64,000 nucleotides of DNA from Streptomyces sp. NBC_01707 (GTDB taxonomy: Bacteria > Actinomycetota > Actinomycetes > Streptomycetales > Streptomycetaceae). Position numbers and translations under genes: made by a program. Of the stretch, positions 1-49,264 are shown piece after piece. How positions within the stretch are numbered: the stretch's first letter is position 1; every line of letters starts with the position of its first letter. The notes beneath the pieces are model-generated. The model did no database searches. It was given only the letters and a program-made list of their open reading frames with translations, and had not been told where the DNA came from. The stretch is from positions 1 to 64,000 of the forward strand of contig NZ_CP109191.1 of the NCBI RefSeq assembly GCF_041438805.1, read 5' to 3'.

Positions 1-3000
1 GGCGTTCGACGCGGGCGCGGGTGTACAGGTCCATGGCGTCGGTGAGGAGGTCCCACTCCTCGCTGTCGAGGCCTTGGGGCCGCGGCCCGAGGACATCGGG
101 ACCGGCCTGGGGGTGGCGGCGCCGGTAGTCGCTGATCGCCGTGAGCAGCTTGGTGTAGGTGAGCTGCTCGTCCTCGTCGTCCTCACCCGGGGCGGTGATC
201 TCCTCCATCCACGCCTGTGGCGCGGTGTCCCCGGCAAGGACGGCGGCCAAGGCGCGGCGGGCGAGGCGCGCGTCGAGAGCCGTGTACTTGAGCGGGGCGA
301 TGCCGCCGGGGTCGCGCAGCGCGGGGTGGTCGGGCAGCGCCCCGGAGTCGGGCGGGGTGTTCAGGTGGTTGAGGGCGGCTTCGAGGACGACCGAGGCGGG
401 CGCGTCGGGGGACGGCAGCTGCACCGGGCGGCGGCGCCCGGTCAGCGCACGGACCCGCATCTCGAGGTCGTCCCAGGCGGTCGCGTCGTCCGGGCCGGCC
501 GGCCGGGGACCCAGACCCGGCACCGCAGTGATGGCATGGCGGGTACGCCACAGCTCCACCAGGGCACAGGTCATGGACCAGGCCGTGCGGCGCAGCGGCG
601 CCGTGTGGGGTGGCGGTGGTCCGAGTGATCGGGCCCAGGCGGGCGGGGCGGCAGCCAGTGTGTGACCACGGTCGGCCAGCGAACGGGCCAGGATGCGGTG
701 GCGCTCGGCAAGATGGTGGCGCCAGTGCTCAGGCGTTGCCCGGTGGGTGAGGGCGTGCCGGTCGGCGACCCAGTCGGGTATCTCACCGCGGTGGTCGGGA
801 CGGTGGGCAAGGTGGTTCGGGAGCCGGTCGCGCAGGCGGAGCTCGGCGGCGATCTTCTCGACGACGCCATTGGCGCGGGCGAGCTTGGTCTTCGCGCGGT
901 GCAGGCGCTGCGCGGTCGTCACGCGGTACCGGGCGACCGTGTGGCGGGTGACGGCCAGGGACTGGGTGCGGGTGGGCGGGCGATGGGCGCTTGGTTCGCG
1001 CTGGAAGTCCTCCCTCGCCTGGTCGCGCCAGCGCAGGTTGCGGCGTAGCTGTGACTCGTGGGTGAGGGCTGCGATCATCTGCCGGGCCGCCGGTGACAGA
1101 GCAGCTCTCCTGGCCTGGGCCCGGCGGATCTGGGTGCGGATGGTGGCGATCTGGGCGGCGAGTTCGCTGCGGGTCAAGGGTCCCAGCGGGCGGTCGGGCC
1201 ACGCGGGATGGGTGTGGCCGGACCGGGTGGTGACGGGGGTAGGCAGCTGGGTGACAGCGGCGTCGGCTGCCTTCAGCTCTTCGCGCGCGGCGGCCCGGTG
1301 GTCGGCTGCGAGACGGGCCAGGGTGTCGAGTTGGTGCAGCGAGAGTCGGGCCAACGGCCGGGTGCGGCCCTCCTTTTGGAGCGTGGCTGCGTCGGCCAGG
1401 CGTTCGCGCAGCCGCCAGGTCAGGACTGCGGCCATGTCGTCGGCGTCCGCGAAACCACGCCGGTAGGCGGTGCGCTGAAGGAGGCGGGGCAGGTCGAACC
1501 CGGCGCGTTCGGCGTCGCTCAGCGCGCGGATCAGTGCCGGGTAGGCGTCGGCGGCCATGAACGCGGCGGCCCGGTCGGCGCCGAGAACGGTTTCGAGGAC
1601 GCCGGTCAGGCGGGCGGTCGTGGCGCGCTCGGCGACGTCGGCGAACTCCGCGCACAGTTGACCGGGGGCGCTGATCTCTCTTTGCAGGGCGGCGATCGAC
1701 TCGGTCGCCGACAGCTGGGCGCTGCGCCGGGCGGCGATGGAGGCCAGCACGTCATCGAGCCGGTCGCCGTCCTCGAGGGCGACGTAGAGCCGGTTGGTGC
1801 GGGCACCGCGCGTCAGCTGCACGTAGACGCCTTCACGGTTGGAGCGCGTCGACGCCAGTGCGTGGGAGGTGTCCACGGTCATGCCCTGGGCGCGGTGGAT
1901 CGTGGAAGCGTAGCCGAGCTCGCACTGGGCGGCGACGTAGTCGGCGGGCAGCCGGATCCGGCCGCGGTGCCCGGTGTGCCGGACCACGACGTCACCGTTG
2001 GCGGTGATGGCTTGGATGGTCCAGGTGTCGCCGTTCTTCACGAAGTCCCGGCCACCGCGCAGGGTCATGCGGCGCCGGTTGAGGCGGGTGACGATGACGT
2101 CGCCGACGTGGGCGTGCTGCCGGGCGCGCAGGGCGACCGCACGGCGGGTGTCGACGTCACCGGCGGCGATGTGCCAGGCCTGGGCGCGCTGATTGAGGGC
2201 GGTGACCGTCGCCGTATCGGCCGCGGTCATGAGCGCGTTGATGCCTTTACCGCAGTCTTTGGCCCAGGCGTCGAAGACCGCGTCGCACATCGCGTCGTAG
2301 CTTCCGGCGACGATCCGCCCCTTGTCCCGGTACCACGTGAACGCGTCGCGGTGATTGTCGCCGTCGCGCAGACCGAGGGAGGCGTCGGCTTCGCCGGGGG
2401 TGCGGAAGCGGTGCAGCCGGTCGAGCTCGACCGCGCCGCCCGCCCGGGCGATGAGCCGCAGCGCTCCCCCGGCCTCGACAGCGGCGAGCTGGTGCGGGTC
2501 GCCGAGCAGCCGCACCACGGCACCGACGGCCGCTGCGTCGGTGAGGATCCGGTCCAGCAGCAGCGTCCCGGCCATGCCCGCCTCGTCGACCAGGACCACG
2601 TCCCCGGGGCGCAGCTGGAAGTCCTTGCCGACCTCCTTGCCGTCGGCCGCGCGGCCGCGCTGATGAAGCCAGGAATGCATCGTGTGGGCGCGCCGGTTCA
2701 GGTCCGCGCCGAGAACCTTCGCGGCACGGGACGACGGTGCGAGCGGTATCAACCGGCCTCCCGAGGCGTCCATCGCCCGGGCCACGAGCCGCATCGCCGT
2801 CGTCTTCCCGGCACCGGCGGGTCCGAGACCGGCGAGCAGCAGCCGGTCCGACAATGCAAACGAGCGGGCCAGTTCACGCTGCCCGGCATCCATCGGACCG
2901 CGATGCAGGGCGGCGACCCGTTCGAAGGTGCCGCGTCCCACGGGCGGGATGACGTGGGTGCGAGCGGCGGCCAGCAGCCGGTTCTCAGCGGCCAACAGCG

Positions 3001-4567
3001 AGTGGGTGGTGTAGGCGGCGGACCCGATCGGCCGGTAGACACTGCTGCCGTCCGCGCGGACCAGGTCGGGGTGGGTGGGGTTGATCTCGGGTGGGGTGAT
3101 GTCCAGGCAGTCGCCGTGGACGAGGGCCCGGTCAGTGATCTGTTCGGCCAGGTCGTGCGGGGCGGTGGCACCGCCGTAGGTGCGCATCAGGTAGCGGCGG
3201 GCCTCGGCCAGGATGTGGCGGCGGCGGAAGGTGGTGCGGCGTTCGCTGACCGCGGCAAGCACCTCCGCGGCCGCCGCCTCGGGATCGACGCCCGTGTGGG
3301 GGTGCTGCTCTGTGGCGGCGGCCTGCGCGGTGGCGAGCAGGTTGTCGACGGTTGCCCGGCTGGTCGCGGCGATCGCCCGGGTCCGCCAGGTGGCCAGGAG
3401 GTCGTCGAGAGAGCGGGCCTTGCCTTTGCGTGGGCGGGTCAACAGGGTCGCGCGGCCCTGCAGGCGCGGCCGCATGGACGGGCCCGGCTCCCGTCCGTAA
3501 CGGCGCCGGTAATCGTCGAACAAGGTCTCCGCCATGGTCCGCACAGCGGTGGCCCGCTGCGAGAACTCCGACCGGATCCGGCGGTCGATGCCGACGATTC
3601 TCATCACCGGACGCTGTCCCGGGGTGACCTCGACTTCCTCGGCGACCAGGCCCAGGCGGGCGCAGACCAACTCGAGGGCCCGCTGGTTGAACAGCTCACT
3701 GGCCGCGACCACTTCCCGCAGCAGCAGCCTCGAGTCGAGGTTGCGCCACCGCCCGTCCGGCCCTTTGACGCGGGGGCTGATGACCACGTGCTCGTGGAGC
3801 ATCGGGTCTCCGGCGCGCGATTCGTAGTGGAGGTAGACCGTCGCCAGCAGGCCCGGTACGGCCCGCTGCTGGGCGATTCCGCCTGGCCCGGTACGTACCG
3901 CGAGGGCGTTCTCCTCCAGCCAGGCCACCGTCTCTGCGCGGGCCTGGGCCAGGACTTCCAGGACGATCCGCCGCACCTCGGGGCTGCCCAGGGCGAACAG
4001 GAGGGACAACTCTTCGGAGGCAAAGGTCAGGTCGAAGCCGGTCCGGGCGTGACGCTGGGGGCCGGTACGGACGGCCAGGAAACGGCCGAGTTCGGCGCCA
4101 TCAACGGGCGGACGGTGGTACTCGGCCTCGAACACGCGCGCCGCAGACCGCATCCGCAAGTGCCGTGTCTCCGCCTTCGTCAGCGGCCGGCACAACTCCT
4201 CGACAGCGTGCTGCAGAACCTCCTCGATCTCCTCGTCCAACGGCGAGAGCTCGGACAGTCGCGGAACAGCCGGGCCGAGCCTCGCCGCCCTGAAAGCCTG
4301 CTTCGACGTGCCACCGTCACCCAGCACCCGGGCCACAATCTCCACCGCGTCCGGGTGCATACCCAAGCCGAACAGCGCACCCATCTGCGGCTCACTCACC
4401 ACACCCGACAACCCCAGCACCCCGGCCGCCCGGCCGTGCCACACCCCCGGAGGAACACCAGGCTCACCCGAGGACACAGTCACCCCACTACCCCGAGCAC
4501 CATCACCCGCCGCGATACTGCGCCGGTAATAGGAGTAGTTCCTCGCCGTAAGCCCCTTCGCCGTCAT
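1..4567 (-). CDS. MobF-family conjugative relaxase with RecD-like helicase domain (3' end outside window)
   Basis: Likely nicks the plasmid at oriT, stays bound to the cut strand and unwinds it for transfer. The start ATG is at 4567 (MTAKGLTARNYSYYRR); the frame is open to base 1, about 1,520 codons, so the C-terminus is missing. Tyr11, Tyr13 and Tyr14 are candidates for the nicking tyrosine. A TrwC-like stretch (GFDLTFASEE, then DPMLHEHVVI near residues 250-262) supplies the metal-binding histidines. A RecD-like Walker A (GPAGAGKTT, near residue 585) and a DEAGMAG Walker B follow, then an Arg/Ala-rich helical C-terminal region. Long antisense frames on the plus strand have the same codon phase and are shadows. 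Fits with the TraB-like translocase at the right end of the window. Confidence 0.9.
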   Translation of the reverse strand, partial: MTAKGLTARNYSYYRRSIAAGDGARGSGVTVSSGEPGVPPGVWHGRAAGVLGLSGVVSEPQMGALFGLGMHPDAVEIVARVLGDGGTSKQAFRAARLGPAVPRLSELSPLDEEIEEVLQHAVEELCRPLTKAETRHLRMRSAARVFEAEYHRPPVDGAELGRFLAVRTGPQRHARTGFDLTFASEELSLLFALGSPEVRRIVLEVLAQARAETVAWLEENALAVRTGPGGIAQQRAVPGLLATVYLHYESRAGDPMLHEHVVISPRVKGPDGRWRNLDSRLLLREVVAASELFNQRALELVCARLGLVAEEVEVTPGQRPVMRIVGIDRRIRSEFSQRATAVRTMAETLFDDYRRRYGREPGPSMRPRLQGRATLLTRPRKGKARSLDDLLATWRTRAIAATSRATVDNLLATAQAAATEQHPHTGVDPEAAAAEVLAAVSERRTTFRRRHILAEARRYLMRTYGGATAPHDLAEQITDRALVHGDCLDITPPEINPTHPDLVRADGSSVYRPIGSAAYTTHSLLAAENRLLAAARTHVIPPVGRGTFERVAALHRGPMDAGQRELARSFALSDRLLLAGLGPAGAGKTTAMRLVARAMDASGGRLIPLAPSSRAAKVLGADLNRRAHTMHSWLHQRGRAADGKEVGKDFQLRPGDVVLVDEAGMAGTLLLDRILTDAAAVGAVVRLLGDPHQLAAVEAGGALRLIARAGGAVELDRLHRFRTPGEADASLGLRDGDNHRDAFTWYRDKGRIVAGSYDAMCDAVFDAWAKDCGKGINALMTAADTATVTALNQRAQAWHIAAGDVDTRRAVALRARQHAHVGDVIVTRLNRRRMTLRGGRDFVKNGDTWTIQAITANGDVVVRHTGHRGRIRLPADYVAAQCELGYASTIHRAQGMTVDTSHALASTRSNREGVYVQLTRGARTNRLYVALEDGDRLDDVLASIAARRSAQLSATESIAALQREISAPGQLCAEFADVAERATTARLTGVLETVLGADRAAAFMAADAYPALIRALSDAERAGFDLPRLLQRTAYRRGFADADDMAAVLTWRLRERLADAATLQKEGRTRPLARLSLHQLDTLARLAADHRAAAREELKAADAAVTQLPTPVTTRSGHTHPAWPDRPLGPLTRSELAAQIATIRTQIRRAQARRAALSPAARQMIAALTHESQLRRNLRWRDQAREDFQREPSAHRPPTRTQSLAVTRHTVARYRVTTAQRLHRAKTKLARANGVVEKIAAELRLRDRLPNHLAHRPDHRGEIPDWVADRHALTHRATPEHWRHHLAERHRILARSLADRGHTLAAAPPAWARSLGPPPPHTAPLRRTAWSMTCALVELWRTRHAITAVPGLGPRPAGPDDATAWDDLEMRVRALTGRRRPVQLPSPDAPASVVLEAALNHLNTPPDSGALPDHPALRDPGGIAPLKYTALDARLARRALAAVLAGDTAPQAWMEEITAPGEDDEDEQLTYTKLLTAISDYRRRHPQAGPDVLGPRPQGLDSEEWDLLTDAMDLYTRARVER

Positions 4568-5119
4568 CCCCACAACACCAGCCGAACACCCCACACCAGA
4601 CACACCCGCGCCCAGAACCGGAACCTCCCAAAGCCTCGGAAACAACCTACGAACACCTCCCGCCACCCGGGAAAGCCCGCTTCCTGAGCGGGCAGCGGCA
4701 AAAAGTGCCAGAGGTGTGTCCCACAACCAGCCCCACCACCCGCAGACCACCCCACCCCCATTCACAGCTGTCCAGCACCCGGCGTGCCGCCCAGACGCAG
4801 CACCCCACCACCCCGACCCACCCTCACGCTCACCCACCGGCACACACCCACCGGCACACACCCGACAGACAACCCCCGCCACCACCCGCACATACAGCGA
4901 CGACACCGACCCCCGTCCCCGGTCCACCGCCAACAACCGACGCGCCACCCAACTGACAGCGCCACCACCACGTCCCCCACGACCTGATCTACCCCGACGA
5001 GATCCCACCCGGCGCGCTCGCCCTCCAGCCCGAGGGCGGTGAGCACCCACGGGGCCGCGGCCTGCCAGCGTTCGCCGGACAGCAGCTTGACGCGCGGTCG
5101 CCCCACCGGTCCGCGCCAC
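4568..5119. other. Intergenic region upstream of the relaxase, with short repeats
   Basis: No convincing gene. The plus strand is C- and A-rich. A 14-bp unit (CACCCACCGGCACA) occurs twice in tandem at 4831-4858, and a small stem (GCCCGCT/AGCGGGC) lies near 4674-4692. The position just upstream of a relaxase gene makes this a place to look for oriT or the relaxase promoter, but no nick site can be named from sequence alone. A minus-strand frame ending at 4762 is possible but unsupported. Confidence 0.4.
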
Positions 5120-5341
5120 TGTGACCGAGAACGGTAGGTGGCGGATCGCGCTTGCTCCGGTGCAGGTCAGAGGCGTTCGGAGAAAGCTGGTTGGCAGATC
5201 ACGAGAAGGATTGTTGGCAGACCATGCCACCTTCGGCCCCGACCGTGAGCACGTCACCGCAGGTGGGCGCGCTAGTCCTCGGTGTGACCGAAGGATCCGC
5301 CAACAATCCTTCTCGCCCGCCACCTAAAGATCTCGGTCACA
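5120..5341. mobile_element. 222-bp MITE-like element with terminal inverted repeats
   Basis: The ends match as inverted repeats: the left begins TGTGACCGAGAACGGTAGG and the right, read inward on the other strand, begins TGTGACCGAGATCTTTAGG; both then run into TGGCGG. A second, perfect 16-bp inverted pair lies inside (GAGAAGGATTGTTGGC at 5203-5218, complement at 5299-5314). No transposase is encoded. This looks like a non-autonomous element or the fused ends of a deleted IS. No clear target duplication was identified. The parent family was not recognised. Confidence 0.6.
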
Positions 5342-5583
5342 GCCGCATGCGTACCCGTCCCGCCGCCGCTGCAGCCACCGGTGCAGCCGCTCCAGCACGC
5401 AGAACGTATGCGCGGGCCTTGTTCACCGCCCCGAGCCGGTCCACCGGGTCGGCGAAAACCAGCCGCCGGCACGACCCGGTCACCAAGTCCCGAGCTACCT
5501 CGGCCGCAACCACCCTCTTCAGTGCTGTAGCGGGCAACCAGCTCGCGACGCCACTCCGGGCTCGAGGTGTGGTCAGCAGGCAC
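5342..5583 (-). pseudogene. Possible gene remnant of unknown function
   Basis: On the minus strand one frame reads like coding sequence (RLVFADPVDRLGAVNKARAY) up to the MITE-like element, while the upstream part reads better in another frame (SSPEWRRELVARYST). This suggests a short gene broken by a frameshift and by the element at 5341. The family is not recognised. It could also be non-coding. Confidence 0.22.
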
Positions 5584-5611
5584 ATGGCCGATGCTGCGGG
5601 CATACCCGTGC

Positions 5612-5647
5612 GGCCCCTGTCCGCGGTCTCCACCGCGGACAGGGGCC
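5612..5647 (-). terminator. Strong stem-loop terminator of the first subtilase gene
   Basis: A perfect 16-bp stem (GGCCCCTGTCCGCGGT, 5612-5627; complement 5632-5647) with a 4-nt loop lies 24 bases past the stop codon at 5671 of the minus-strand protease gene. There is no long U-run, which is common in high-GC actinomycetes. Confidence 0.8.
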
Positions 5648-5670
5648 CTTTCGTCAGCCTCCCGCCGTCG

Positions 5671-8600
5671 CTACTTCAGGCCGAAGGCGCGGATCACGGT
5701 CTGGCTCACGCTGTTCCCCTTCGTGTCCCGCGCCGTCGTGCGCAGGCTCGCGAAGCGGGCCCGGGACGGCGCGTCGAGCTGCGCCTTCCAGGCGCCGCCC
5801 GACTGCCTCAGTGTCGTCCGGCGCCACGTCACACCGTCGTCGTAGGAGACTTCCACCGTCGCCGTGCGTATCGCGCCCGCGCCCGCCGCTCCCTTCAGGT
5901 GCGACGGGGTGACCGTCAGCCCGGTCCGCCGGTGCGCCTTGCCGGACAGGTCGGTGGCCACCGCATAGTCGAGCTGCACCAGCGGGAGAGGCGTGAGAAC
6001 CGCGTAGTCCTTGGTGCTGGAGGTGAACCCCCACTCGGTGCGCGTACGGGTCGAATACGGCCGGTCCGGCAGGCTCCGCTTGCCCTCGACCACCATCCGG
6101 TAGGGCAGCGGGTCCGGTGACACGTTTTCGACGGTGACGATCCGCTCGTTGACGTCCTCGCCGAGCAGCTCGTCGCCCTGGTAGAGCGAGATCTTCGAGG
6201 TGTCGCTGTCCGCCCAGACGACACCCGCGTGACCGTCGGCGTCGCCCCAGGCCGGTACGACGGACGTGCTGATGACGTCGCCAGCCCGGAAGGGGGCCTG
6301 CCAGCTGATGCCGTCGTTGAGCAGTCGCGGGCGCTGGACGGGTGAGAACCAGCTCTCGCCGGTGGTGCTGCGCGGCTGGTACGAACGCGCCAGGCCCCGC
6401 TGGCCCAGGTCGCTCATGCCGGCGCCGGAGACCCAGCGGACGCCGGTGTCTGCCGTGACCCACGACGTCAGCGTGCCCTGGGTCGCAACCGGCGTGGAGT
6501 TGCTGAGCATGGGGCCGTTGAAGATGGCGGACACGTCATCGCGGTACTGGCGGGCCTCGCCCTGCTTGGTGTCGCGGAACGACTCGTCGATCCGCGCCAG
6601 TTCACCCGAGCCGGGACGGTAGGACGGGTCGCGCGGGATAGCTCCGTCGTGATGGCGGACGAGGTCATAGAGGTAGCGCGGATGCGGGTGCGAGACCACC
6701 TTCAGCGTCGCGGTGCCGGTCTTGCGGAGCCGGCTGAGCAGCCGAGTGCTGTCGTCGGTGCCGAGCGAGGCCGTCGGCAGCGGGGCGGTGTCGGGAAGGT
6801 CGGCCCAGGGGTCAAACTTTCCGTAGCCGTCGTTCAGGATCAGCAGTTGCCTGGCGCCGGCCTTCGCCGCCGCCGCGGCCTGGTCCGGGGCGGGCACGGT
6901 GTCGTTACGGCGGACGACCGCCACCTGGCCCCGCACCTTCAGCTTGCGGAAGTCCGCGCCCGAGCCGTTGCCGGCCCAGACGGCCCGGTAGGTGCCGGTG
7001 CCCTCGGGCAGCGCGCGGGACAGGCTCTGGATGACGACGTCGTCGTAGGTCTGCGAGCCGGAGGAGAACGTCAGCGGGGGCTGGATCTGCCGCCAGCGGG
7101 TCGCGAAGGTGTACGAGCCCTTCGTCACCTTCGGCGTCGGGGTCACCCAGAGGCTGTCGTACCGCCAGTACTCGGGCATGTAGCTGTCCATGAACGGGAA
7201 CAGGTCGCCGTTGGTGCGGTACTGGTCCACTCGCATGAACTGGTTGGCGGTCGGCTGCGGGGTATAGGCGGCTGCCTTGCGCAGGTTCGCGGCGTCGAAG
7301 CGGACGGTGCGGTCGGCGTCGAGGTCGATCTGCGGCGCGGAGAACATGGCGAAGCCCAGCGTGTGCGTGCCGTCGATCCCTGGCACGGCGGTGTTCATCC
7401 ACGCCGAGTAGGTGCTTGGGGGCAGGCGCAGGCTCATGCGGCCCGAGGCGTCGATCTCATACATCTTGGGCGCGGTGTTGCGCTCGATGTCCTTCAGGAC
7501 GAGCGTGCCGGGCAGGGCGTCCCCGTGGCGGTCCTTCGCCGTGACGGACAGCGTGACCCGGCGGCCCTCCTTGTTCACGCCGACCGGCGTGCGGGTGAGG
7601 ACCGTGCCGTCGGCGCGGGTGGCGGTGAGCCGACTGGAGTAGGCGGCATTGTCCTCCGCCGCGTCGAGGTGGGTGATCACGCCGACGGTGGCGGTGCCGC
7701 GCGCGGGCACGCTCAGCCGCGAGTCGGTGAGGGTGAACACACCTTCGGGCAGCTGGTCCTGGCTCAGGGACAGGTCCACGGTGACCGGCTCGGACCCGGT
7801 GTTCGTGTAGGTGACGTCCTTGCGGACGGTCTGGCCCGGCGTGTACGGGTAGTGGGCCTGGGCGAACGCGGACCCGGAGGCGAACAGTGTGGCCTTCACA
7901 GCGGCGGCGATGTCGAGCCGGCCGCTGCCGGCCTCGAAGGGGCTGAACCGCTGGGTGCTCGCGGTGGTGCTGACCAGGGCGTCCTTGAGCTGCTGCCCCG
8001 TCCAGTCCGGGTGCTTGGCGGCCAGCAGGGCCGCCGCGCCCGCGACGTGCGGTGTCGCCATGGAGGTACCGCTCATCGTCTGATAGGCGCCCTCACCCTC
8101 CGCCGCGTACTGCGAGCGGGCCGCCAGCACGTTCACACCCGGGGCGGTCAGATCGGGCTTGATGGCGTTGTCGCCCACGCGGGGGCCGCGGCTGGAGAAC
8201 TCCGCCAGCTGATCCACGCCCTTCCCCGGACCGTTCACCGCGCCGACCGTCAGCGCGGCATCCGCCGCTCCCGGGGCGCCCACACTGTACGCCTCAGGAC
8301 CGGAGTTGCCGGCCGCGATGACGAACAGCGTTCCGGTCTCCTCACTGAGCCGGTTCACCGCCTGGCTCAACGGGTCGGTGCCATCGGTGGGCCCGCCCCC
8401 CAGGCTCATACTGACAACCTTGGCGTGCTGGTCCCGGGCCGCCCACTCCATCCCCGCCAAAATCCAGGAGTCCTGACCACTGCCGTCGTTGTCCAGCACC
8501 TTGCCTATGTGCAGCCCCGCGCCCGGGGCGACACCCTTCTCCTTGCCGCCGGACGCCGCCCCGGTACCGGCGACAGTCGAGGCGACATGGGTGCCGTGAC

Positions 8601-9438
8601 CCTGCCGGTCGGTGACGTCCTGCCCCGGCACGAAACTCTCCGTGGCCACGATGCGGCCGGCGAAGTCCGGGTGCGCGGCGTCGATCCCGGTGTCCAGCAC
8701 CGCAACGTCCACGCCCTGCCCGGTGTCCCCGCCCGCCCAGACCTCGGGAGCCCCGATCTGCGCGGTGGTATCGGACAGCGTGGCCGTGACCTTCCCGTCC
8801 AGCCACACCTTCGCGACCCCGCCCGCCAGCGTTCCACGGGACGCGCCACCAGCAGTCCGCGCCCTCGCGAAGGATGCCGGAGTGCCGCTGAGGGAGGACC
8901 AGAAGTCCGCCGCCTGCGCGTGCTTGGCCGATATCGCCGCGCCCTGGATGCTGCTCAGGGCCAGGGTCGTGCCGGCGCCCTCGGGGACCTTCATGTTGCG
9001 GGAGCGGGCCGCAGCGTCGGTGTACGTGACGATCAACGGCAGATGGTCACTGCGCGCGTCGTCGTAGCCGTCCGCGAGCAGCTCGGTCACGTTGAACAGG
9101 TGCTCGTCCAGTGCCCCGGACGCGATAAAGGGCAACGCCACGTCGGGATACACATAGATGTCATCACCGACCGACATCACGTGCGCGCCACCGGTCCTGC
9201 CCTGCGGATCGGCCACCGACGTGACCGAATGCCTGCCGCCGTTCCCGGTCACCGTGACCTTGTCACCGGTGATCAGCGTGACGGTACGCACAATCGCAGG
9301 ACCGGCGGCGGAAGTCGCCGTCGGGAACGGGGGCGTCGGAGTGGTGTCGGCCGACGCGGTAGGGCCGGTGGCCGTCAGCACCACCAGCGCGGCGACAGCG
9401 GCTGTCAACCCGCGTCTGCGGGACGGAGGCATACGCAA
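5671..9438 (-). CDS. Secreted S8-family (subtilisin-like) serine peptidase, 1,255 aa
   Basis: Extracellular endopeptidase. Start TTG at 9438 or ATG at 9432; a GAGG box lies just upstream. A signal peptide with Arg-rich n-region, hydrophobic core and ASA cut site ends near residue 30. The catalytic triad is visible: Asp249 (VAVLDTGID), His281 (GHGTHVAS) and Ser459 (GTSMATPHVAG), with oxyanion Asn378 (AAGNSG). Residues about 35-230 resemble a propeptide. The ~750 residues after the catalytic domain include a PA-like segment (QLLILNDGYG) probably inserted in beta-sandwich domains, and the protein ends VIRAFGLK. A close paralogue with the same layout is at 13196-16912. The gene is divergent from the TrmB/LuxR regulator at 10047, which may control it. 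Confidence 0.93.
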   Translation of the reverse strand: MRMPPSRRRGLTAAVAALVVLTATGPTASADTTPTPPFPTATSAAGPAIVRTVTLITGDKVTVTGNGGRHSVTSVADPQGRTGGAHVMSVGDDIYVYPDVALPFIASGALDEHLFNVTELLADGYDDARSDHLPLIVTYTDAAARSRNMKVPEGAGTTLALSSIQGAAISAKHAQAADFWSSLSGTPASFARARTAGGASRGTLAGGVAKVWLDGKVTATLSDTTAQIGAPEVWAGGDTGQGVDVAVLDTGIDAAHPDFAGRIVATESFVPGQDVTDRQGHGTHVASTVAGTGAASGGKEKGVAPGAGLHIGKVLDNDGSGQDSWILAGMEWAARDQHAKVVSMSLGGGPTDGTDPLSQAVNRLSEETGTLFVIAAGNSGPEAYSVGAPGAADAALTVGAVNGPGKGVDQLAEFSSRGPRVGDNAIKPDLTAPGVNVLAARSQYAAEGEGAYQTMSGTSMATPHVAGAAALLAAKHPDWTGQQLKDALVSTTASTQRFSPFEAGSGRLDIAAAVKATLFASGSAFAQAHYPYTPGQTVRKDVTYTNTGSEPVTVDLSLSQDQLPEGVFTLTDSRLSVPARGTATVGVITHLDAAEDNAAYSSRLTATRADGTVLTRTPVGVNKEGRRVTLSVTAKDRHGDALPGTLVLKDIERNTAPKMYEIDASGRMSLRLPPSTYSAWMNTAVPGIDGTHTLGFAMFSAPQIDLDADRTVRFDAANLRKAAAYTPQPTANQFMRVDQYRTNGDLFPFMDSYMPEYWRYDSLWVTPTPKVTKGSYTFATRWRQIQPPLTFSSGSQTYDDVVIQSLSRALPEGTGTYRAVWAGNGSGADFRKLKVRGQVAVVRRNDTVPAPDQAAAAAKAGARQLLILNDGYGKFDPWADLPDTAPLPTASLGTDDSTRLLSRLRKTGTATLKVVSHPHPRYLYDLVRHHDGAIPRDPSYRPGSGELARIDESFRDTKQGEARQYRDDVSAIFNGPMLSNSTPVATQGTLTSWVTADTGVRWVSGAGMSDLGQRGLARSYQPRSTTGESWFSPVQRPRLLNDGISWQAPFRAGDVISTSVVPAWGDADGHAGVVWADSDTSKISLYQGDELLGEDVNERIVTVENVSPDPLPYRMVVEGKRSLPDRPYSTRTRTEWGFTSSTKDYAVLTPLPLVQLDYAVATDLSGKAHRRTGLTVTPSHLKGAAGAGAIRTATVEVSYDDGVTWRRTTLRQSGGAWKAQLDAPSRARFASLRTTARDTKGNSVSQTVIRAFGLK

Positions 9439-24202: not shown

Positions 24203-24475
24203 TCACACCACAGCTTGGGGAACGCGTACAACCGGCCAGATCGCCAACCTTTGCAGATCGAGCAACTGCACCGCATGGAGGAGTAGTGCCCCCTGGAAGC
24301 CGACGCTGATGGTGACCGTGGGCCCGTTGCGGTGCTTGCCGATGATGAGGTCGGCTTCGCCGGAGCGCAGTGATTCCTTCTCGTAGGCGTCCTCTCGGTG
24401 CAGCATGACGACCATGTCGGCGTAGTTTTCGATGGCGCCGGATTCGCGGAGGTCGGAGACCACCGGCTTCTTGCC
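24203..24475 (-). pseudogene. C-terminal remnant of replicative helicase DnaB
   Basis: The minus strand encodes the DnaB C-terminal motif region: VVSDLRESGAIENYADMVVM, LHREDAYEKE, GEADLIIGKHRNGPTVTISV, then a frameshift into GFQGHYSSM. The Walker A part and the N-terminal domain are missing. It is probably a leftover of a phage or integrative element, not the host helicase. Confidence 0.7.
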
Positions 24476-30760: not shown

Positions 30761-32248
30761 TCACGGCGCTTCGCCCGCGATGGCCAAGGTCGTCCACCTA
30801 GCTCGCGTGAGGGCGACGTAGAGTTTGCGGTGGTCTTCGTTGCCGGAATTAAGCCCATGACTCAAGGCCCCCTGCTCGGCGCTGCTGAGGCACACTCCGA
30901 CACGGTCCCACTCGCGGCCCTTGGCCTGATGGGCGGTGAGCCCAGGGATCAGCTGAGCTGCCGGTATGCGGAGCCGAGCACGGAGTTGCTCCAGACGAAC
31001 GCGGTGAGTCTTGTGGTGTCGGGGGATTTGGCGGTCGCTTTCCTCCCCAATGACGGTCTTGAGACTGGTCAAGATCTCGTCGATGTCTCTCGTGCCTGCA
31101 AGGTCGTCGAGAAGGGTGCCCAAGCTTGGGCGCAGGCGACCCAGCGCTTGGCTTTCGATATCAAGCGTGGTCAGGGCGTCGTTGTGGAAGGTGGCGTTGC
31201 CGCCAAAGGTTCGCTGGGTAAGTTCGCTGAGCAGAAGAGTGCACGCTGCTTCCTGGGCTTGTCCCTTGAAGCTTTTGTAGGCAAGGGGCAGGACGTGGGG
31301 TCCGGTGTCCCAGAGTTGGTTCCACTGCAGGGCGAGGAGGACGTCCACGTCTTCGGCGTGCCCTTGTGGCAGGCTTACCTCTTCTCCGGCTCGTAGCCGG
31401 TGTGCCAACTGGGACTGGTCTTCGCTCTTCCATCGGAAGGATGTGGGAAGGTCCCGCTGGACGAGGTTGGCTTCCTCAACAAGGGCTGGAACCTGGTCGG
31501 GGCGGGCCCCTCGGAAGCCATACAGTGCCTGCCATGGGTCGCCGACCACGGTGATGTCCAGTCCCGCGTCGGCAGCGAGCCGGACCAAAGCCAGGTCGAG
31601 CGCATTGGCATCGAATATCTCATCGACGATGAGCGCACGGACGGTCTGGGCAAGGCGCGCGAGTAGGACGTCGCGCGTACTGCTGTTGGCCAGAGCCATC
31701 TCCAAAAGGCGCCGGACCTCTTGATGGGTGCACCAGCCCCCAGCCAGAGCCTCGTTGAGGTCTGCCAGGGTAGGTCGGTTGTCCTTGTCGGCCGAGCGTG
31801 CCCCCCTTGCAACGACCTGGTCGCCGTCCAACGTGAGGATGGGTCCCCAGTTGCTCCACGTGGTGGGTAACAGCACTCGCCAGTGATCGATGACGGTGAG
31901 CGAGCGATGGCCCGCAGGCCAGTTCACGTGTCCAGTGCTCAGCAGGTGTGTGAGCAGATCGCAGACAATGGTGTCCAGGGTGACGATGCGGTGCGGCCAC
32001 GCCAGGGCCGCGGGCCCCCATTGGCTGAGCACGCGGCTGCGGAGTTCGGTCGTTGCCGAGCGGGTGAAGCTGACCGCGATGATGGCGCGTGGATCGTTGC
32101 CACTGCGGAACCGCTGAATGCCGAAGCGCTGGGCGGCCACAGTGGTCTTGCCGGACCCGGGGGCCGCTTCGATATACAGCCGGCGGTGGGGCGTCCCAGC
32201 TGCGATCAACTGCTCCCGGGTGAGGGGTCCCCTGCCCGAGGGGCTCAC
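30761..32248 (-). CDS. gajB: UvrD/Rep-like SF1 helicase, GajB-like (Gabija)
   Basis: 495 aa from GTG 32248, whose first base is shared with the gajA stop (TAGTG), so the two are translationally coupled. SF1A motifs are all visible: Walker A AAPGSGKTTVA (about residue 28), DE box VDEIFDAN, motif III VVGDPWQALYGFRGA, the TSFR motif, AHQAKGREWDRV and LYVALTRARWT. In Gabija the helicase-like subunit works with the GajA nuclease against phage DNA; GajB proteins are about 500 aa, as here. Adjacent OLD and UvrD genes define class 2 OLD loci. A generic repair helicase is unlikely given this partner. Confidence 0.8.
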   Translation of the reverse strand: MSPSGRGPLTREQLIAAGTPHRRLYIEAAPGSGKTTVAAQRFGIQRFRSGNDPRAIIAVSFTRSATTELRSRVLSQWGPAALAWPHRIVTLDTIVCDLLTHLLSTGHVNWPAGHRSLTVIDHWRVLLPTTWSNWGPILTLDGDQVVARGARSADKDNRPTLADLNEALAGGWCTHQEVRRLLEMALANSSTRDVLLARLAQTVRALIVDEIFDANALDLALVRLAADAGLDITVVGDPWQALYGFRGARPDQVPALVEEANLVQRDLPTSFRWKSEDQSQLAHRLRAGEEVSLPQGHAEDVDVLLALQWNQLWDTGPHVLPLAYKSFKGQAQEAACTLLLSELTQRTFGGNATFHNDALTTLDIESQALGRLRPSLGTLLDDLAGTRDIDEILTSLKTVIGEESDRQIPRHHKTHRVRLEQLRARLRIPAAQLIPGLTAHQAKGREWDRVGVCLSSAEQGALSHGLNSGNEDHRKLYVALTRARWTTLAIAGEAP

Positions 32249-34389
32249 TACCGCTCCCCCGGTTCCGATACGCCGGTGGCTGAGTCAACTTCGCTAGTCG
32301 GTACGGCTGCCGTAGGCCAATGTCCTGCAGGGTCAGCGTCGTCGGGCACAAAGGAAGCTGCAGGCCAGAGCCCGCCAGCACCCATCGGTGCTGCGGTAGC
32401 AACCTGATCACCAGCCGACGTCGGGTCCAGAGGCCAGGTGAGTGCGGCGGGCCCAACGGCGCCCTCGGCTCTCTCGTGGGCTTCATCGACCTCCCCGTCA
32501 CCGCCAGTCTTAGCCGCAGGCTGCGGGTGAAGGAATTCGAAGAGTTCCCTGAGATGCCCTGGAACGTGAACCGTCTGACCACCTTCAACGGCCTCTGCGA
32601 GGCATGCGGCAAGAGAATCGGCGAACGCCGCCTTCTCCGCAGAGAGCGGCCCTGCCTTCGTAGCGGGCGACGTCTTCGTGGCCACGCGTGCGCTCTTGAA
32701 CAGGTCGTGTACTGCTTCCGGGGTCACCTGATCGGGGACCGTAGCATCGATCGCAGTCAGGGCAGTAGATATGAGGAGCTCATTGCCGTCCACAATGGAT
32801 GGCTCCAGTGTCGGGTGGCTAATGAAGGCCCGTACGACGTCGGGATCGTGATCCTTGACCCACTTCGGAGCAGAGTATCCCTGGTCGAAAGGCTTGTCGC
32901 TGTCGGTCAGCACGGCCAACCTTGTACAGAGTTCCTCGCCTTTCGTGGCGAGAAGCCGGGAAGTCCAGGCTCCGACCTTGGATCCGACATAGACGATGCT
33001 CAAAGCCTCGATAAAGGCGCGCTTCGCAGGGTCGTCCGCTGCCCAGGCACGGCCGAAGTCACGGAGGATAGCGGCTTCGGTGACCCCTTCCACCACCACA
33101 AGCCGTTCGGCGAACAGGGCAGCGGAGCGGCTGGCATCCATGTGAATGCGAGCCATGCGCAGCGTACGATCGCGATCCTTCATCTGGATTGCGGCGATCG
33201 GTCGGCAGACACGGCGGCCAGCTCCCGTGTGCCGCAGCACTACGAGATCTTCCGGATTGCAGGAGGCGATGATGTCGGTGGCGTGGCTGGAGAGCACGAT
33301 CTGCAGTTCTGGGCGATCCCGGACGGACTTGCGTAGGTAGCGCACGAGGGCGTGCTGCAGCTGGGGGTGGAGGTGAGCTTCTGGCTCCTCGATGACGATG
33401 GTGGCGTGGAATGCTGTGCGGGGAAAAAAGGAGTCTGCCTCGGACTCGGCCTCGGCTTCGGCCTGGGTGAGGCCTTCCAGCGCTCGCTGTTCCTCCTCCG
33501 CCTCCGTCATGTCATCGGGCTTGGGGTGCGTCTCTGACTGCGGTGCGCCTTCTGGGGCGGCGCGCTGGGTGGAGTCGGGGATTGCGGCCAAGGTCACAGC
33601 GATATGCAGCAGGTTGACATAGCCCAGGCCCGAGACCTCTAGCGGGCGGGCTGTGGTACGGCCTTCCATGACGGCCAACATCATCTCCAGGACCCGGGCG
33701 AGGTAGGAGTCGTCGATCACCTGACCGCGGACGTAGGGCCACTGCTGCTGCACACCCGAGGTGAGTGCGAAGAGATGTGCGCCGATGCGTTCTTCAATCG
33801 CTTGGATAAGGCCGTCCTTGGCCAGGTCCTCCAGGAGACGAGAAGCCTGCACCCGCAGCGGCACCAGACTGCGGGTGCCGTCCAGCCGTTCCTGCTCGGC
33901 ACGCAGCAGCTCAATCAGGATGCGGGCCTCACGACGCGCCAGCTCATCCAGAGGGTTGCGCCAAGCCGGAAGATAGATGAATTTGAACGGATCCGTGCCC
34001 AGCCCTGGGTTCTGGGCTTCGCTCCCCTTAACTCGGGACCGGATGGTGCCGAGGTCGCGTTCCAGGACAGCTCCCCATTTCTGGGCGGTGCCCTCACCGG
34101 TTTGGTGCAGGGAGTTTTGCAGCGATCTGCCCAGCGGCCCTTCGTGGCCCGCGGAGTCCTCAAAGGTGTATTGCACCTCGACGCTTGCTTCCCTCCCGAG
34201 AGCGGCGGCGCCCTGTCGTGGCAGCAGAGGGAAGCGGCTGGTGTGCGCCAGATATAGGGCGTCGGTGACAGTGGTCTTGCCCGCGCCATTCGCGCCGATC
34301 AACACGCTGAAGCGCCCCGGCAACGGGCAGTCAATCTCCCCCTCGGCGCTTGCTCTCAGTCCGGATACCCTCACGCGGCTCAGATACAC
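32248..34389 (-). CDS. gajA: OLD-family ATPase with TOPRIM nuclease domain, GajA-like (Gabija)
   Basis: 713 aa. GTG 34389 was chosen because AAGGGGAGA lies 6-7 bases before it; TTG 34407 is in frame but falls within that site. The ABC-type ATPase domain has Walker [10 protein letters not shown] (32-40), a GLGYVNLL signature-like motif (about 255), Walker [14 protein letters not shown] (about 331-343) and an H-switch SSHATD (about 367). The TOPRIM domain has [12 protein letters not shown] (catalytic Glu, about 431) and VLTDSDKPF (Asp-x-Asp, about 493-501). An acidic insertion (about 275-325) sits between signature and Walker B, and the last ~90 residues are a Pro/Ala/Gly-rich tail. GajA nicks specific DNA when nucleotide levels fall. 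Predicted anti-phage function. Confidence 0.8.
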
Positions 34390-35429: not shown

Positions 35430-35831
35430 CTACAGGGGGAGTTGTATCCCAAGTTCCTGCATCGCGGTCGAGGGCGGTCCACCCTCAGAACGCTCCGTCT
35501 TGAAGCCTTTCACTCGCGCCGCGAGGGTGCGCGGATCGACCGCTTCGGCCGGAGCGCCCTTGGCGTACAAACCGTCTGGCTCCGAGTCGCGGTCATGGGG
35601 CAGGAGCCAGAAAACACGGCGTCGAAAAGTGCCGGAAGAGCGGGAGGACTTGGCCGTGGGACCGAGGAGGGCATAGCCGACCATGCGACCGTCACGATAG
35701 TAGGCGGGTTTGCCCTTCCGCGTCGGAAGGCGGTCGAGGCTTTGGCGCACGTAGTCGAGATCGTCGATGCCTTCCAGCCAGACGAGGTCTACTTCGTGGC
35801 TGATCTCGTCCTCGGTGATCAGGGAGCTCAT
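35430..35831 (-). CDS. Small protein coupled to the SF3 helicase gene, unknown
   Basis: 133 aa from ATG 35831, overlapping the helicase stop (ATGA). Begins MSSLITEDEISHEVDLVWLE; mixed alpha/beta composition, no membrane segment, no motif recognised. Its position as third gene behind Prim-Pol and helicase suggests a replication accessory role (inference). Confidence 0.7.
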   Translation of the reverse strand: MSSLITEDEISHEVDLVWLEGIDDLDYVRQSLDRLPTRKGKPAYYRDGRMVGYALLGPTAKSSRSSGTFRRRVFWLLPHDRDSEPDGLYAKGAPAEAVDPRTLAARVKGFKTERSEGGPPSTAMQELGIQLPL

Positions 35832-37354
35832 GGGCGGGCGTCCCTTTCCTCATCGGTGAGCAGTCCGATTCCCGGGTAGTGCTTGCGCTGATTGGACAGG
35901 ATCATCTCCTTGGGCGACTTCAGCCCCACGAGTTCACGAGTGCGGGCGGCAAACGCCCTGGAGGACATGGCTGGTGCTCCTTCATTGTGGCACCAGGCCT
36001 TGTACACCGCGTAGAGGGCGGTCTGCTCGGCGCGCAGTTCGGCGGCCATGATGCACGCTTCTTCGTAGAAACGACCGGTGTGGTCTTCGGTCTCCGCGTA
36101 GGCGGTGGTGGCGATGCGGACTCGCTCGGGACCGGTGAGATCGCGGTCGCCGGCGAGGTAGCGGCGGGCACCGTCGATGAGCCAGCCGAGGATGCCTGGC
36201 CCCTCCTCGGTGACCAGGATGTCGGCAAGGTTGTCGATCTTCCGGTCGTCAGGAACGACGCGTTCGAAGGGGATCAGGCACATACGGCGCCAGAACGCGA
36301 AGCCTCCGGTACCGACTTCGGGGCGGTGGTTGCCCAGGAGCCACAATTTGTGCGTGGGCTGGAAGCTGAAGAAGTCCTGGCGCATGCGGCGTGCCTTGAT
36401 GCGGTCTCCGCCAGTGAGCAGTTTGACGCGGGCCTCGTCGAACTTGTCGCCTGGTTTGACCTCGGAGCACACGATGACGCGCCGACCGTGGAGTTCAGCA
36501 AGGTCGGTTGGGTGGCCCTCGTAGGGGCGGGCCATGAGGAAGCCTGGGGGCGCCGCGTCAGCGTAGTCGCCGAGCAGCTTCATCAGGACGTCCAGCAGTA
36601 CGGATTTGCCGTTCTTTCCGGAACCGAAGAGGAAGGGAAGGACCTGTGCACCGACGTCACCGGTGACGGAGTATCCCAGCAGCAGCTGGAGATAGCTGAT
36701 CATTTCACGGCCTTCGGTGTCGTCGCCGAAGGTGTCGGTCAGGAAACGCTCCCAGCGGGGGGCAGGGACGTGCTGGGGGCCGACGCTGGTGGAGCGCGAG
36801 TGGAAGTCCTTGTTTGGGTCGGGTGTCTTCAGGAGAGCTGTACGCAGGTCGACGATTCCGTCGGGCGTGCACAGGGCGTAGGGGTCGGCGTCGAGGAGGG
36901 CCGCGTTTAGGACCATTCCGGGAGCGGATTTGGCTTGGGTCAGCATGGCGTTGATCCCGGTGGTGGATAGCGCACGCCGCCGGTGTTGGTTCAGGGCGGT
37001 GCTGGTGAAGACACCACGGGGGTCGTGCCCCGCGATGTTCTCAGCGAGGTCGCCCGCCGCCCACAGCACAGTGTCGTCCTCGTCGATCTGCCAGCGGGTG
37101 GTGTCCCAGCGATACCAGCCGATGCCGGGGACGTGCCGGTAGTCGTTGGCGTACAGCCGGACGAACAGCTTGGCATTGCCGCGGTCGGAAAGGGTGTCAG
37201 GTAGAAGTCCGGCCTCGGTCGCGGGGCCAGACGCGGCTCGCTTCGCGTCGGACTGAGTCGGCAGAGGAACCGTGGAGCCTTGAGCACGGATCTGGGCGGC
37301 CACGGCCTCGGCGTTGAAATCGAAGAGCGTTTCGTTGCTTCCCGGCGTCGTCAT
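35828..37354 (-). CDS. Phage/plasmid primase-helicase, P4/D5 type (SF3 helicase)
   Basis: 508 aa, from ATG 37354, which overlaps the Prim-Pol stop (ATGA). D5-like N-terminal region (about 55-230), then an SF3 helicase: Walker A FGSGKNGKSVLLDV (243-256), Walker B-like VIVCSEVKPGDKF, and motif C KLWLLGNHRPEV with its Asn. Such proteins form a hexamer that unwinds the origin. Together with the upstream Prim-Pol and the nearby iterons it forms the replication module of the element. Confidence 0.9.
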   Translation of the reverse strand: MTTPGSNETLFDFNAEAVAAQIRAQGSTVPLPTQSDAKRAASGPATEAGLLPDTLSDRGNAKLFVRLYANDYRHVPGIGWYRWDTTRWQIDEDDTVLWAAGDLAENIAGHDPRGVFTSTALNQHRRRALSTTGINAMLTQAKSAPGMVLNAALLDADPYALCTPDGIVDLRTALLKTPDPNKDFHSRSTSVGPQHVPAPRWERFLTDTFGDDTEGREMISYLQLLLGYSVTGDVGAQVLPFLFGSGKNGKSVLLDVLMKLLGDYADAAPPGFLMARPYEGHPTDLAELHGRRVIVCSEVKPGDKFDEARVKLLTGGDRIKARRMRQDFFSFQPTHKLWLLGNHRPEVGTGGFAFWRRMCLIPFERVVPDDRKIDNLADILVTEEGPGILGWLIDGARRYLAGDRDLTGPERVRIATTAYAETEDHTGRFYEEACIMAAELRAEQTALYAVYKAWCHNEGAPAMSSRAFAARTRELVGLKSPKEMILSNQRKHYPGIGLLTDEERDARP

Positions 37355-38463
37355 GGGCGGCCTCCATGGGGGTGGAGGGGGTGCTTGAGGCCTGCGGCCA
37401 GTCCGCTGCTAATGATCAGCTCGATGCGGCGTTCCTGGCCCGGGCGAGCGGCAATGGCAGTGTGGGTCAGCAGGCGGGCCGCTTCGCCCTCGGGCAGGCG
37501 CCCGGCCGCGACCAGGCCGCCCAGTGTGTAGGCGGCCCGGTTGAGCGTGTCGGAGAAACCAGCTCCTTCGCTGACTTCTCCACAGGCATGGACGGGGGCC
37601 AGGACGGCCGTGAGGAGGCGCTGGATGCGGTCGCCGCCGCCGCCCGCCGCCAGGACGGCCTGCTGGGCACGGGGGGGCACCGGCCGGGGGGCGGGGATAT
37701 GAGGGGCGGGCAGGTGTCCGGTGCGCTCGAGTTCCTGGGCAAGCCAGCCTGGGAGGAGGGCAGGTTCGCGGGTGTCCCCGAGGACGGTGTAGGTGCCGTG
37801 TTCGGTGGTCGTGCCGGGGGCAACGATGTAACCGCCGTGGGCGCGAACATCAACCTGCCAGGCGAGGGCACGGCTGGAGCTGGACCCGGAGGAGCACTGC
37901 CAGCGGCGATTGTCCGAGGCTCGGTACCAGACGTGGAGGCCTCCGGATGGAGTCCTCACTCGCAGGGTCGCCTGGTCGTCCGCGGGACATGGCTGGCCCC
38001 TGAGGGCGGCCAGGACGGCGAGCGTGTGGAAGCCGTTGGCCAGTCCCGTGAGGTCTACGTGGTCGGCGATGGGGATTCCCGGCAGGATACGGTCGCGGCT
38101 GGGGGGCTGAGTCTGGTGGGCATCGATGTCGATGACGACGAGGCTTGCAGGGCCGCAGGCGACAGCGACTCCGAAGTCCGGCCTCGAACCCCACCATTGG
38201 CTGATGCGGCGCTGGTCGAGGGTGGCGGCATGGAATCCGTGGCACCAGCGGTCTGCGGCTAGACAGGGGCACTGTGTGGGGCTGTGTCGAGTCGCACGAC
38301 ACGACGCGCAGTTGGCGGCCGGTGTCTTGCGCCCTGGAGCAAGCGGATGCACCGGCCAGCCCCGGCGCGCGCACCAGCTGGCGGTGGCCAACGAGAGAGG
38401 GACTGAAGCCGCAGGCGACTGGGAGCGTGAGTCGCTGGTGGAAAAGCCCAGCTCAGCAGACAC
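37351..38463 (-). CDS. Bifunctional DNA primase/polymerase (Prim-Pol, AEP superfamily)
   Basis: 370 aa; GTG 38463 was chosen since AGGGGG lies 8 bases before it (GTG 38469 is also in frame). N-terminal Prim-Pol domain: VVIDIDAH (catalytic Asp pair), RTPSGGLHVWYR (the S-x-H/GG-x-H region) and VDVRAHGGYIVAPGT (third motif). An N-terminal Cys/His cluster (CASCRATRHSPTQCPC) could bind zinc. It should make primers and start DNA synthesis at the plasmid origin. First gene of a three-gene operon with ATGA overlaps, reading away from the iteron field. Confidence 0.88.
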   Translation of the reverse strand: MSAELGFSTSDSRSQSPAASVPLSLATASWCARRGWPVHPLAPGRKTPAANCASCRATRHSPTQCPCLAADRWCHGFHAATLDQRRISQWWGSRPDFGVAVACGPASLVVIDIDAHQTQPPSRDRILPGIPIADHVDLTGLANGFHTLAVLAALRGQPCPADDQATLRVRTPSGGLHVWYRASDNRRWQCSSGSSSSRALAWQVDVRAHGGYIVAPGTTTEHGTYTVLGDTREPALLPGWLAQELERTGHLPAPHIPAPRPVPPRAQQAVLAAGGGGDRIQRLLTAVLAPVHACGEVSEGAGFSDTLNRAAYTLGGLVAAGRLPEGEAARLLTHTAIAARPGQERRIELIISSGLAAGLKHPLHPHGGRP

Positions 38464-38476
38464 CTGCACCCCCTAT

Positions 38477-45668: not shown

Positions 45669-46757
45669 CTACTTCCTTCCGGCTGCTGAGGCTTGCTCAG
45701 CTCGCATCCTCTTTGTCTCTTCGATTTTGTAGTCCACCAGCAGCTCGGTGAGCTTCCGCCTTGTCGGGGCATCGAGCTCAGCAATGATCAGCTGCGACAG
45801 AGCCCCAGGATCAAGGGATGGCAGCCGGATCGCAGTGCCAGCGGCCTCTCGCGGCTTCGGCAGATCGCTCCCAGCTGTCTCGTCAGAAGCGGACCCATTC
45901 ATTACGGCGTAATGATCGGGAGACGGCGCGTCTTCCCCTACCGGCTTGGACGGCCCGCTCAAGAGGTTCTCGGCGGGCGGAGTCTGGGAGGGCTGCCTGT
46001 GACTGCTTGCGACACGCTGCTTTGCGCGAGCCTTCTTGTCTGCGGCTTCCTGCGCTTCCCTTTCCTTGAGCAGCCGCAGGTGCACCTCCTGCTCTTCGGC
46101 CTTCTTCTTGCCGACTCGCCTTAGAAGCGCTGCGGATTCCTCACCGGACTGCAGCCTCTGCTTCAGCTCGGGGGTCAGGGTGAGGAGTGCGAGCCTCTGG
46201 GACACCCATCCCTGGGAGCGGTGGAGTCGGGCCGCGAGCGCCTCCTGTGTGCCGTGGACCTTCAGTAGTTGGTCGAGGGCTTTGGCTTCGTCGAGGTGGT
46301 CGAGGTCCTGGCGGTGGATGTTGGCGACGAGGGCCGATTCCAGTATTTCGTCGGGGTTGCTGCCGAGGTCGTCGTCGAGCATGACCTTGATGTCGGTGAG
46401 GCCGGCTTCCCGAGACGCGGCGAGACGGGAGTTGCCGTCGATGACGACGTACTTGGTGTCCGGCTCAAGGTCGTGCTCTCGCTCGGGGTTGCCCTCGAGG
46501 TAGGCGAACCGGCCCATGATGCTGATCGCGGTCTTCTGACCGTGGTCGCGAAGACTGGCGCTGAGGTCGGTCAGGTCGCCGAGTTCCGACCGTGGGTTGT
46601 CCGGGTTCAGACTGATGAGGTCAACAGGCAGCTTGACGGGGGGCGGTGCTCCCTCCGTCGGGGCGCTGGTGTTGGCGTTGATCGCGGCGCGGCGTGCGCT
46701 AATGGTCTGTGTCTGTCCGAACGACGCACCGGCGCCGAGCCTGTCTGCCTTGCTCAT
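45669..46757 (-). CDS. parB: ParB-family partition protein
   Basis: 362 aa, ATG 46757 overlapping the parA stop (ATGA). The N-terminal tail would stimulate ParA; the ParB/Spo0J nuclease-like fold follows (LISLNPDNPRSELGDLTDLS, about 46-65; VIDGNSRLAASREAGL), then the HTH (EALAARLHRSQGWVSQRLAL) that should bind parS, a charged linker, and a C-terminal dimer region. CTP-binding motif residues (GNSRLAA for the usual GERRLRA) are partly changed, as in other plasmid ParBs. Candidate parS sites lie at 48055 and 48916, and one core within this gene at 45901. Confidence 0.9.
   Translation of the reverse strand: MSKADRLGAGASFGQTQTISARRAAINANTSAPTEGAPPPVKLPVDLISLNPDNPRSELGDLTDLSASLRDHGQKTAISIMGRFAYLEGNPEREHDLEPDTKYVVIDGNSRLAASREAGLTDIKVMLDDDLGSNPDEILESALVANIHRQDLDHLDEAKALDQLLKVHGTQEALAARLHRSQGWVSQRLALLTLTPELKQRLQSGEESAALLRRVGKKKAEEQEVHLRLLKEREAQEAADKKARAKQRVASSHRQPSQTPPAENLLSGPSKPVGEDAPSPDHYAVMNGSASDETAGSDLPKPREAAGTAIRLPSLDPGALSQLIIAELDAPTRRKLTELLVDYKIEETKRMRAEQASAAGRK
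45901..45913. promoter_or_regulatory. Partial parS-like site inside parB
   Basis: ATTACGGCGTAAT, the 13-bp core of the palindrome seen at 48055 and 48916 (read on the other strand). May be chance or a weak extra binding site. Confidence 0.4.
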
Positions 46758-47995: not shown

Positions 47996-48054
47996 GGAAG
48001 ATACCTTACTAACGTACGCGATCAGACGCAGCATCAACACGCTAGCTTCGCCAA

Positions 48055-49164: not shown

Positions 49165-49264
49165 CACCCTCGATAACCCTTCATGGACGGATTCCGGTGT
49201 GCCACGATGCGGGTGCCGCGCCTGTTCGGACGCGGATGTGGGGTACGCAAGGAGGCCGGTTGCG

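Follow-up and report, generated by a model that had tools for sequence, protein, structure and literature searches.

Gabija assignment of the gene pair

Does the gene pair that joins an OLD-family ATPase to a UvrD-like helicase in Streptomyces sp. NBC_01707 encode a Gabija-type defence and, if so, is it the system already known? An earlier note on the window, by which we mean the whole stretch analysed (bases 1-64000 of the 312,363-bp contig NZ_CP109191.1), had read the pair as a Gabija-like system made of a class 2 OLD nuclease and a UvrD helicase. Profile matches, the predicted GajA fold, its catalytic residues and the pairing of the two genes in 18/18 loci of the same branch agree with that reading. 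We therefore predict with high confidence that gajA-gajB is a Gabija-type nuclease-helicase defence. The two genes are as follows.

32248..34389, minus strand: gajA, class 2 OLD nuclease (ABC ATPase plus Toprim), 713 residues from GTG 34389, or 719 if translation begins at TTG 34407
30761..32248, minus strand: gajB, superfamily 1A UvrD/Rep-like helicase, 495 residues, GTG start at 32248, overlapping gajA by one base

The longest gajA open reading frame (ORF) listed opens at TTG 34407, from which all GajA residue numbers are counted here, and closes with a TAG ending at 32248. The start favoured in the earlier note, GTG 34389, is supported by AAAGGGGAG immediately upstream and by 12/19 aligned homologues that start at the same point. 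The one-base overlap of the two genes, also noticed earlier, takes the form TAG/GTG (TAGTG), with GGGGGAG immediately upstream of gajB. Both products have protein relatives (1115 matches for GajA and 1017 for GajB at E≤1e-3 among the candidates scored, the best 120 of each being listed). Differences from the 71%-identical copy in genome G172 fall mostly at the third codon position (150/111/315 at positions 1/2/3 in gajA, 86/87/241 in gajB). These two observations rule out chance ORFs and establish both as real genes. A scan for sigma-70 promoters gave 0 sites against 0.5 in shuffled sequences; terminator-like sites numbered 5 against 2.8 (standard deviation 1.8), an excess over shuffles that is not clear.

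GajA was matched by the GajA model of PADLOC (E 1.3e-48), with 17 GajA models ranking before the first AriAB and Old models, and by AAA_15 of Pfam (E 1.1e-15); NCBIfam yielded no model at its cut-off for GajA or GajB. The best single-sequence match in the PDB was the class 1 OLD nuclease of Thermus scotoductus (6p74, E 1.4e-10). A first structural model, built from 20 sequences, had a predicted local distance difference test (pLDDT) score of 66.8 and was superseded by a later one, used for all fold results. In fold comparison the predicted GajA matches solved GajA over residues 7-631. Walker A (G38-T46), the ABC signature (S259-G262), Walker B (E340-E341) and H375 are present and conserved, as are the Toprim residues E440, G441, D502, D504, E535 and K592. 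We compared the best 80 of 425 loci from a profile scan of genome contigs, 18 belonging to the branch of the window copy (L002-L019) and 62 more distant. Among these 80, E440 was kept in 80/80, D502 in 79/80 and D504 in 77/80. The Toprim residues published for Bacillus cereus GajA (BcGajA) are E379, D432, D434 and G409 (PMC10781630). Our sequence alignment to BcGajA spans the Toprim Glu only, and the counterpart of the invariant Gly is uncertain. By its modelled structure the protein is a GajA-type OLD protein with ABC ATPase and Toprim, and by alignment it carries the predicted catalytic Glu and DxD of a Toprim domain.

These data bear on whether a different ABC ATPase, of RecF/SMC type, PtuA or a retron effector, simply lies beside a helicase gene by chance. 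SMC and PtuA matches end near residue 404-447, short of the span covered by GajA matches, and the Toprim fold and residues are present, which rules out an SMC/RecF-type ATPase lacking Toprim. With the PADLOC ranking and a GajB-type helicase gene directly following, a chance neighbour of this kind is extremely improbable. The OLD-family assignment with TOPRIM motifs given in the earlier note is thus upheld by PADLOC, predicted fold and Toprim residues.

GajB was matched by the PADLOC GajB model (E 3.3e-41) and in Pfam by UvrD-helicase (7.9e-24) and UvrD_C (7.6e-8). With a profile built from 20 GajB relatives, UvrD was matched at E 9.3e-22 and the solved chains of GajB at a best E of 5.4e-16, and a fragment of a distant GajB used as query also matched GajB. 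The check proposed earlier, a profile search with GajA and GajB models, has therefore been run and made no non-OLD assignment. Since PADLOC models for both proteins already match the pair, it is, on its sequence, a variant of the known system and not a new one.

Comparison with solved relatives supports the same placement. GajAB of B. cereus VD045 (PDB 8sm3, 8x5i, 8jqb) is alike in gajA-then-gajB adjacency, in an ABC ATPase with a dimerisation insert plus Toprim, and in GajB length (495 residues here, 494 in chain 8j4t_G) with helicase Walker A and C-terminal motifs in common. It differs in having a GajA of 578 residues against 713 here, where Walker B is preceded by an extra acidic helix and the protein ends in about 80 disordered residues, and in GajB motif II, which is DEYQD there and DEIFD here. 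The class 1 OLD nuclease 6p74 also combines ABC ATPase and Toprim; class 1 enzymes stand alone (PMC10568477), whereas here a helicase gene directly follows. The retron-Eco8 effector (class 3 OLD; 9lpa) differs from GajA in the helicase partner present here. No reverse transcriptase was found among 28 window ORFs scanned against Pfam, and no search was made for a retron RNA.

An insert in GajA and an altered motif II in GajB

The earlier note had singled out an acidic insertion of about 50 residues and a long disordered tail in GajA as unusual. Both were located, together with a change in GajB motif II.

33430..33573, minus strand: branch-specific GajA insert, residues 279-326, defined from its spacing (18 loci of the branch, 62 distant ones), conservation and predicted structure
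31610..31624, minus strand: GajB motif II, residues 209-213, DEIFD instead of DExQD, from alignment to B. cereus GajB (BcGajB) and UvrD
32251..32490, minus strand: disordered acidic, proline-rich GajA C-terminal tail, residues about 640-719, from pLDDT and a length survey

The insert consists of a variable linker (279-300) and an acidic helix (302-325), followed by DSFF (325-328) and the Walker B strand. From signature glycine G262 to Walker B E341 the window GajA counts 79 residues. The same spacing is 66-95 residues in 18/18 branch loci (38-61% identity) and 26-39 residues in 61/62 distant GajA loci. An artefact peculiar to the window protein is ruled out by this branch-wide long spacing. 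Among the window GajA and its homologues (120 in total, four of them left out of the length count where the motif pattern failed), 116 could be measured: from the end of the signature helix motif to Walker B they hold 51-81 residues with a median net charge of about -11, and DSFF occurs in 112 of them. In 20 aligned sequences the linker is without conservation, and A318, D325 and S326-F327-F328 are invariant (20/20). The model places the helix at block pLDDT 85-89 and the linker at 61-65. The acidic insertion is thus real, as claimed earlier; it is a trait of the whole branch, however, and disordered in its linker half only.

The tail is as the earlier note described it, predicted disordered from about residue 640. 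The last predicted helix is 617-626, and pLDDT is below 50 across nearly all of 645-719. Residues 630-719 include 15 D/E, 3 K/R and 11 P, and tail length ranges from 0 to 148 residues among the 116 sequences.

Motif II reads DEIFD in the window GajB, DEFQD in UvrD and DEYQD in BcGajB. The DEXQD box, typical of GajB and described for BcGajB though not defining, is by alignment absent from the window protein. All Walker, TOPRIM and SF1 motifs had been reported earlier as present; the Walker and TOPRIM motifs are indeed conserved, but SF1 motif II departs from DExQD. The Gln is replaced by Phe or Tyr in 120/120 GajB sequences (the window's and 119 homologues, 47-79% identical to it as listed); for one of the homologues the motif, DEIFD, was read from its full-length sequence. 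In the branch loci the residue is aromatic in 18/18 (14 Phe, 4 Tyr), and DExQD is found in 56/56 distant loci having a helicase ORF. Four distant loci (L020, L023, L025 and L035) are from Streptomyces and combine short spacing with DEAQD, so the aromatic motif follows the branch and not the genus. In BcGajB the glutamine is Q165, counted along the aligned 499-residue chain on the assumption of five added residues, near D162 and E163. With supercoiled DNA, the nuclease is partly freed from ATP/GTP inhibition by D162A and E163A (PMC10822852). In solved GajAB the DEXQD box adjoins the GajA ATPase domain (PMC10781630), and we propose on this account that the GajA insert and the GajB motif II change may be coupled.

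A shared history would also produce this pattern. All insert-bearing GajA of the branch form one group with bipartition support 1.0 (73 vs 30 sequences), so the insert and the motif II change may each be single, independent events, and their pairing may be a historical accident. The locus would then be a working Gabija with its mechanism unchanged, the two traits being neutral inheritance, and only the regulatory part of our proposal would be affected. The lack of conservation in the linker fits this explanation. Yet the helix half is kept, and an aromatic residue retained in every GajB sequence across such divergence argues for kept function; nor is this a habit of the genus, given the four Streptomyces loci of short form. 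We regard neutral inheritance as a serious possibility, while leaning slightly away from it.

Pairing, distribution and movement of the branch

An adjacent GajB-type helicase gene is present in the window, with the one-base overlap. In 18/18 branch loci gajA is followed on its own strand by a gajB match; the gap from the end of the gajA match, which excludes the tail, to the gajB match is no more than about 300 bases. Distances between GajA sequences and between GajB sequences from 24 loci were correlated (Mantel r 0.913, reached in 0/999 permutations), indicating that GajA and GajB travel together. The acidic insertion marks a well-supported branch of Gabija.

The branch was found in 9/295 sampled Streptomyces genomes, a count that takes in a split copy, a fragment and the window's own genome. 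This sparse distribution counts in favour of the defence reading. In a sample of 396 genomes of the phylum, only the window's own copy was recovered at E≤1e-60. When genome contigs were scanned with a single sequence, no relative was found; the profile scan did find relatives, with the branch represented in further actinobacteria as well as in bins assigned by their labels to Dehalococcoidia and Rhodospirillales (labels as given). In Glycomyces xiaoerkulensis (L008, 9868-14023) the gajB match is split by about 3 kb, and the pair looks interrupted.

gajA and gajB account for all DNA similarity between the window and a 19-kb stretch of G172 except a 76-base match at 17.1 kb of the window, the pattern of a mobile cassette. 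Seven neighbouring ORFs of the window, some of which are perhaps not genes, had no match at E≤1e-5 in 28 branch loci. Of these loci, 17 hold 8.6 kb or more; the other 11 hold only 3.3-5.1 kb and are thus of little weight, and L082/L093 and L088/L090 are each a pair from a single genome. A phage-borne origin was rejected, as 50,697 phage records yielded nothing at E≤1e-10. Relatives are encoded by 53 viral contigs, none above 35% identity in the best segment.

Several observations weigh against the Gabija assignment or against its regulatory extension. The Pfam OLD-like Toprim model scored 19.9 bits on GajA, below its cut-off of 23.2, identity to solved GajA is just 15-17% across the fold alignments, and SMC heads equal GajA in fold Z score. 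A helicase ORF was not found in 6/62 distant loci, and in L031 the helicase ORF scored lies upstream of gajA. Several copies within the branch seem to be broken or in pieces: gajB in L003, L008 and L013, and gajA in G094, with a fragment in G114. The distant locus L053 has a spacing of 88 together with DEYQD, so a long insert need not accompany the motif II change, although by eye its insert does not resemble that of the branch. The one-group tree allows the independent events set out above, and the insert and motif II change could themselves leave part of the canonical mechanism altered or lost.

The probable linear plasmid and the surroundings of gajAB

Terminal inverted repeats of 8.8 kb and a Tpg gene of its own make it very probable that the replicon carrying gajAB is a linear plasmid.

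59..8886, no strand: left terminal inverted repeat of the plasmid, which recurs in inverted orientation and with 100% identity as the final 8,828 bases of the contig

The same contig encodes the telomere-protecting terminal protein Tpg at 116437-116979, where NF047541 scores 300.9 bits (cut-off 90). The contig ends match in inverted and not direct orientation, which rules out a circular plasmid.

Such a location raises the possibility that the pair is an OLD-helicase module for plasmid biology, serving plasmid competition or the handling of linear ends, and not phage defence. gajAB lies 31-34 kb from the plasmid end. In Streptomyces sp. NBC_00015 another branch copy is carried by a linear plasmid of 708,592 bp, about 64 kb from its end, and the G172 copy has about 36 kb between it and the contig start. 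In Pseudomonas, Gabija also acts on plasmid DNA (PMC12407980). Terminal position is not a rule, however, since other copies (G110, G246) are deep within chromosome-size contigs. A match was present in only 1/72,556 plasmid records, and the seven unmatched neighbours likewise argue against a conserved plasmid module. We consider a dedicated plasmid function quite unlikely, and keep Gabija defence as our reading of the pair.

Just upstream of gajA, at 35430-38469 on the minus strand, are genes for a Prim-Pol primase, a P4-family D5-like helicase (TIGR01613, above cut-off) and DUF6009; this compact run looks like a replication module of a plasmid or of an integrated element. A three-gene system combining gajAB with these genes was rejected, none of the seven neighbouring ORFs being matched in the 28 branch loci, 17 of them with 8.6 kb or more. 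Nine neighbouring ORFs had no PADLOC match at E≤1e-3, and among these no broader defence island showed up.

Within the terminal repeat lie a gene for a MobF/TrwC-type relaxase-helicase, its frame open from 5323 up to the start of the contig, and the larger part of a subtilase gene, which crosses the inner edge of the repeat; relaxase-helicase and subtilase are thus largely present at both plasmid ends. Subtilase (S8) genes at 5671-9438 and 13196-16912 are about 74% DNA-identical across 0.87 kb. An 86-residue ORF at 24203-24463 is probably a gene remnant, its match being limited to the end of the C-terminal domain of DnaB helicase. Within 7 kb (45669-52911) there are three genes for ParA-type ATPases and one for a ParB-like protein, which seems redundant for one plasmid. 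The plasmid also has a TROVE/VWA (Ro60-like) gene at 58605-60227; Ro60 proteins bind small Y RNAs.

Proposed mechanism and significance

We infer complex formation, defence, trigger and any role of the insert as follows. By analogy with solved relatives, GajA would form a tetramer on which GajB would dock. At its core the mechanism should be the Gabija one, in which GajA does the cutting and GajB sets its timing. The GajB helicase ATPase and the GajA ABC ATPase would sense DNA and nucleotide state. The abnormal state would be either a falling nucleotide pool (PMC10822852) or linear ends unheld by a host end-processing nuclease, as in the model of linear ends without RecBCD occupancy (PMC12407980). 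The GajA Toprim site would then cut DNA, halting phage replication or circularisation. In the chromosome of the strain, two adjacent large frames (1173 and 1518 residues) that contain PDDEXK_1 domains would fit an AdnAB-type end-processing enzyme.

Regulation in the branch probably differs in detail, through the acidic helix before GajA Walker B and the aromatic residue in GajB motif II; any particular role for the insert carries much lower weight than the Gabija identity. One such role would be a new linkage between the two ATPases. The acidic helix of GajA would reach the 1A domain of GajB, the site of the aromatic replacement in motif II, and activation would depend on GajA-GajB contact or on DNA ends more than on nucleotide level. 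On a protein-capped linear replicon the complex could then patrol for uncapped linear DNA without self-cutting. We think this specific proposal unlikely to hold.

No description of this branch was found in the parts consulted of the open-access literature on Gabija, GajA/GajB and class 2 OLD. How Gabija discriminates self from phage is disputed between nucleotide depletion (PMC10822852) and linear ends lacking RecBCD (PMC12407980). A natural branch altered in the GajB motif whose D162 and E163 affect nucleotide inhibition, with a new element beside GajA Walker B, would provide a ready-made test of these models. In a laboratory Streptomyces the DNA-end model becomes directly testable, because this copy resides on a replicon that is linear and for which DNA ends are normal.
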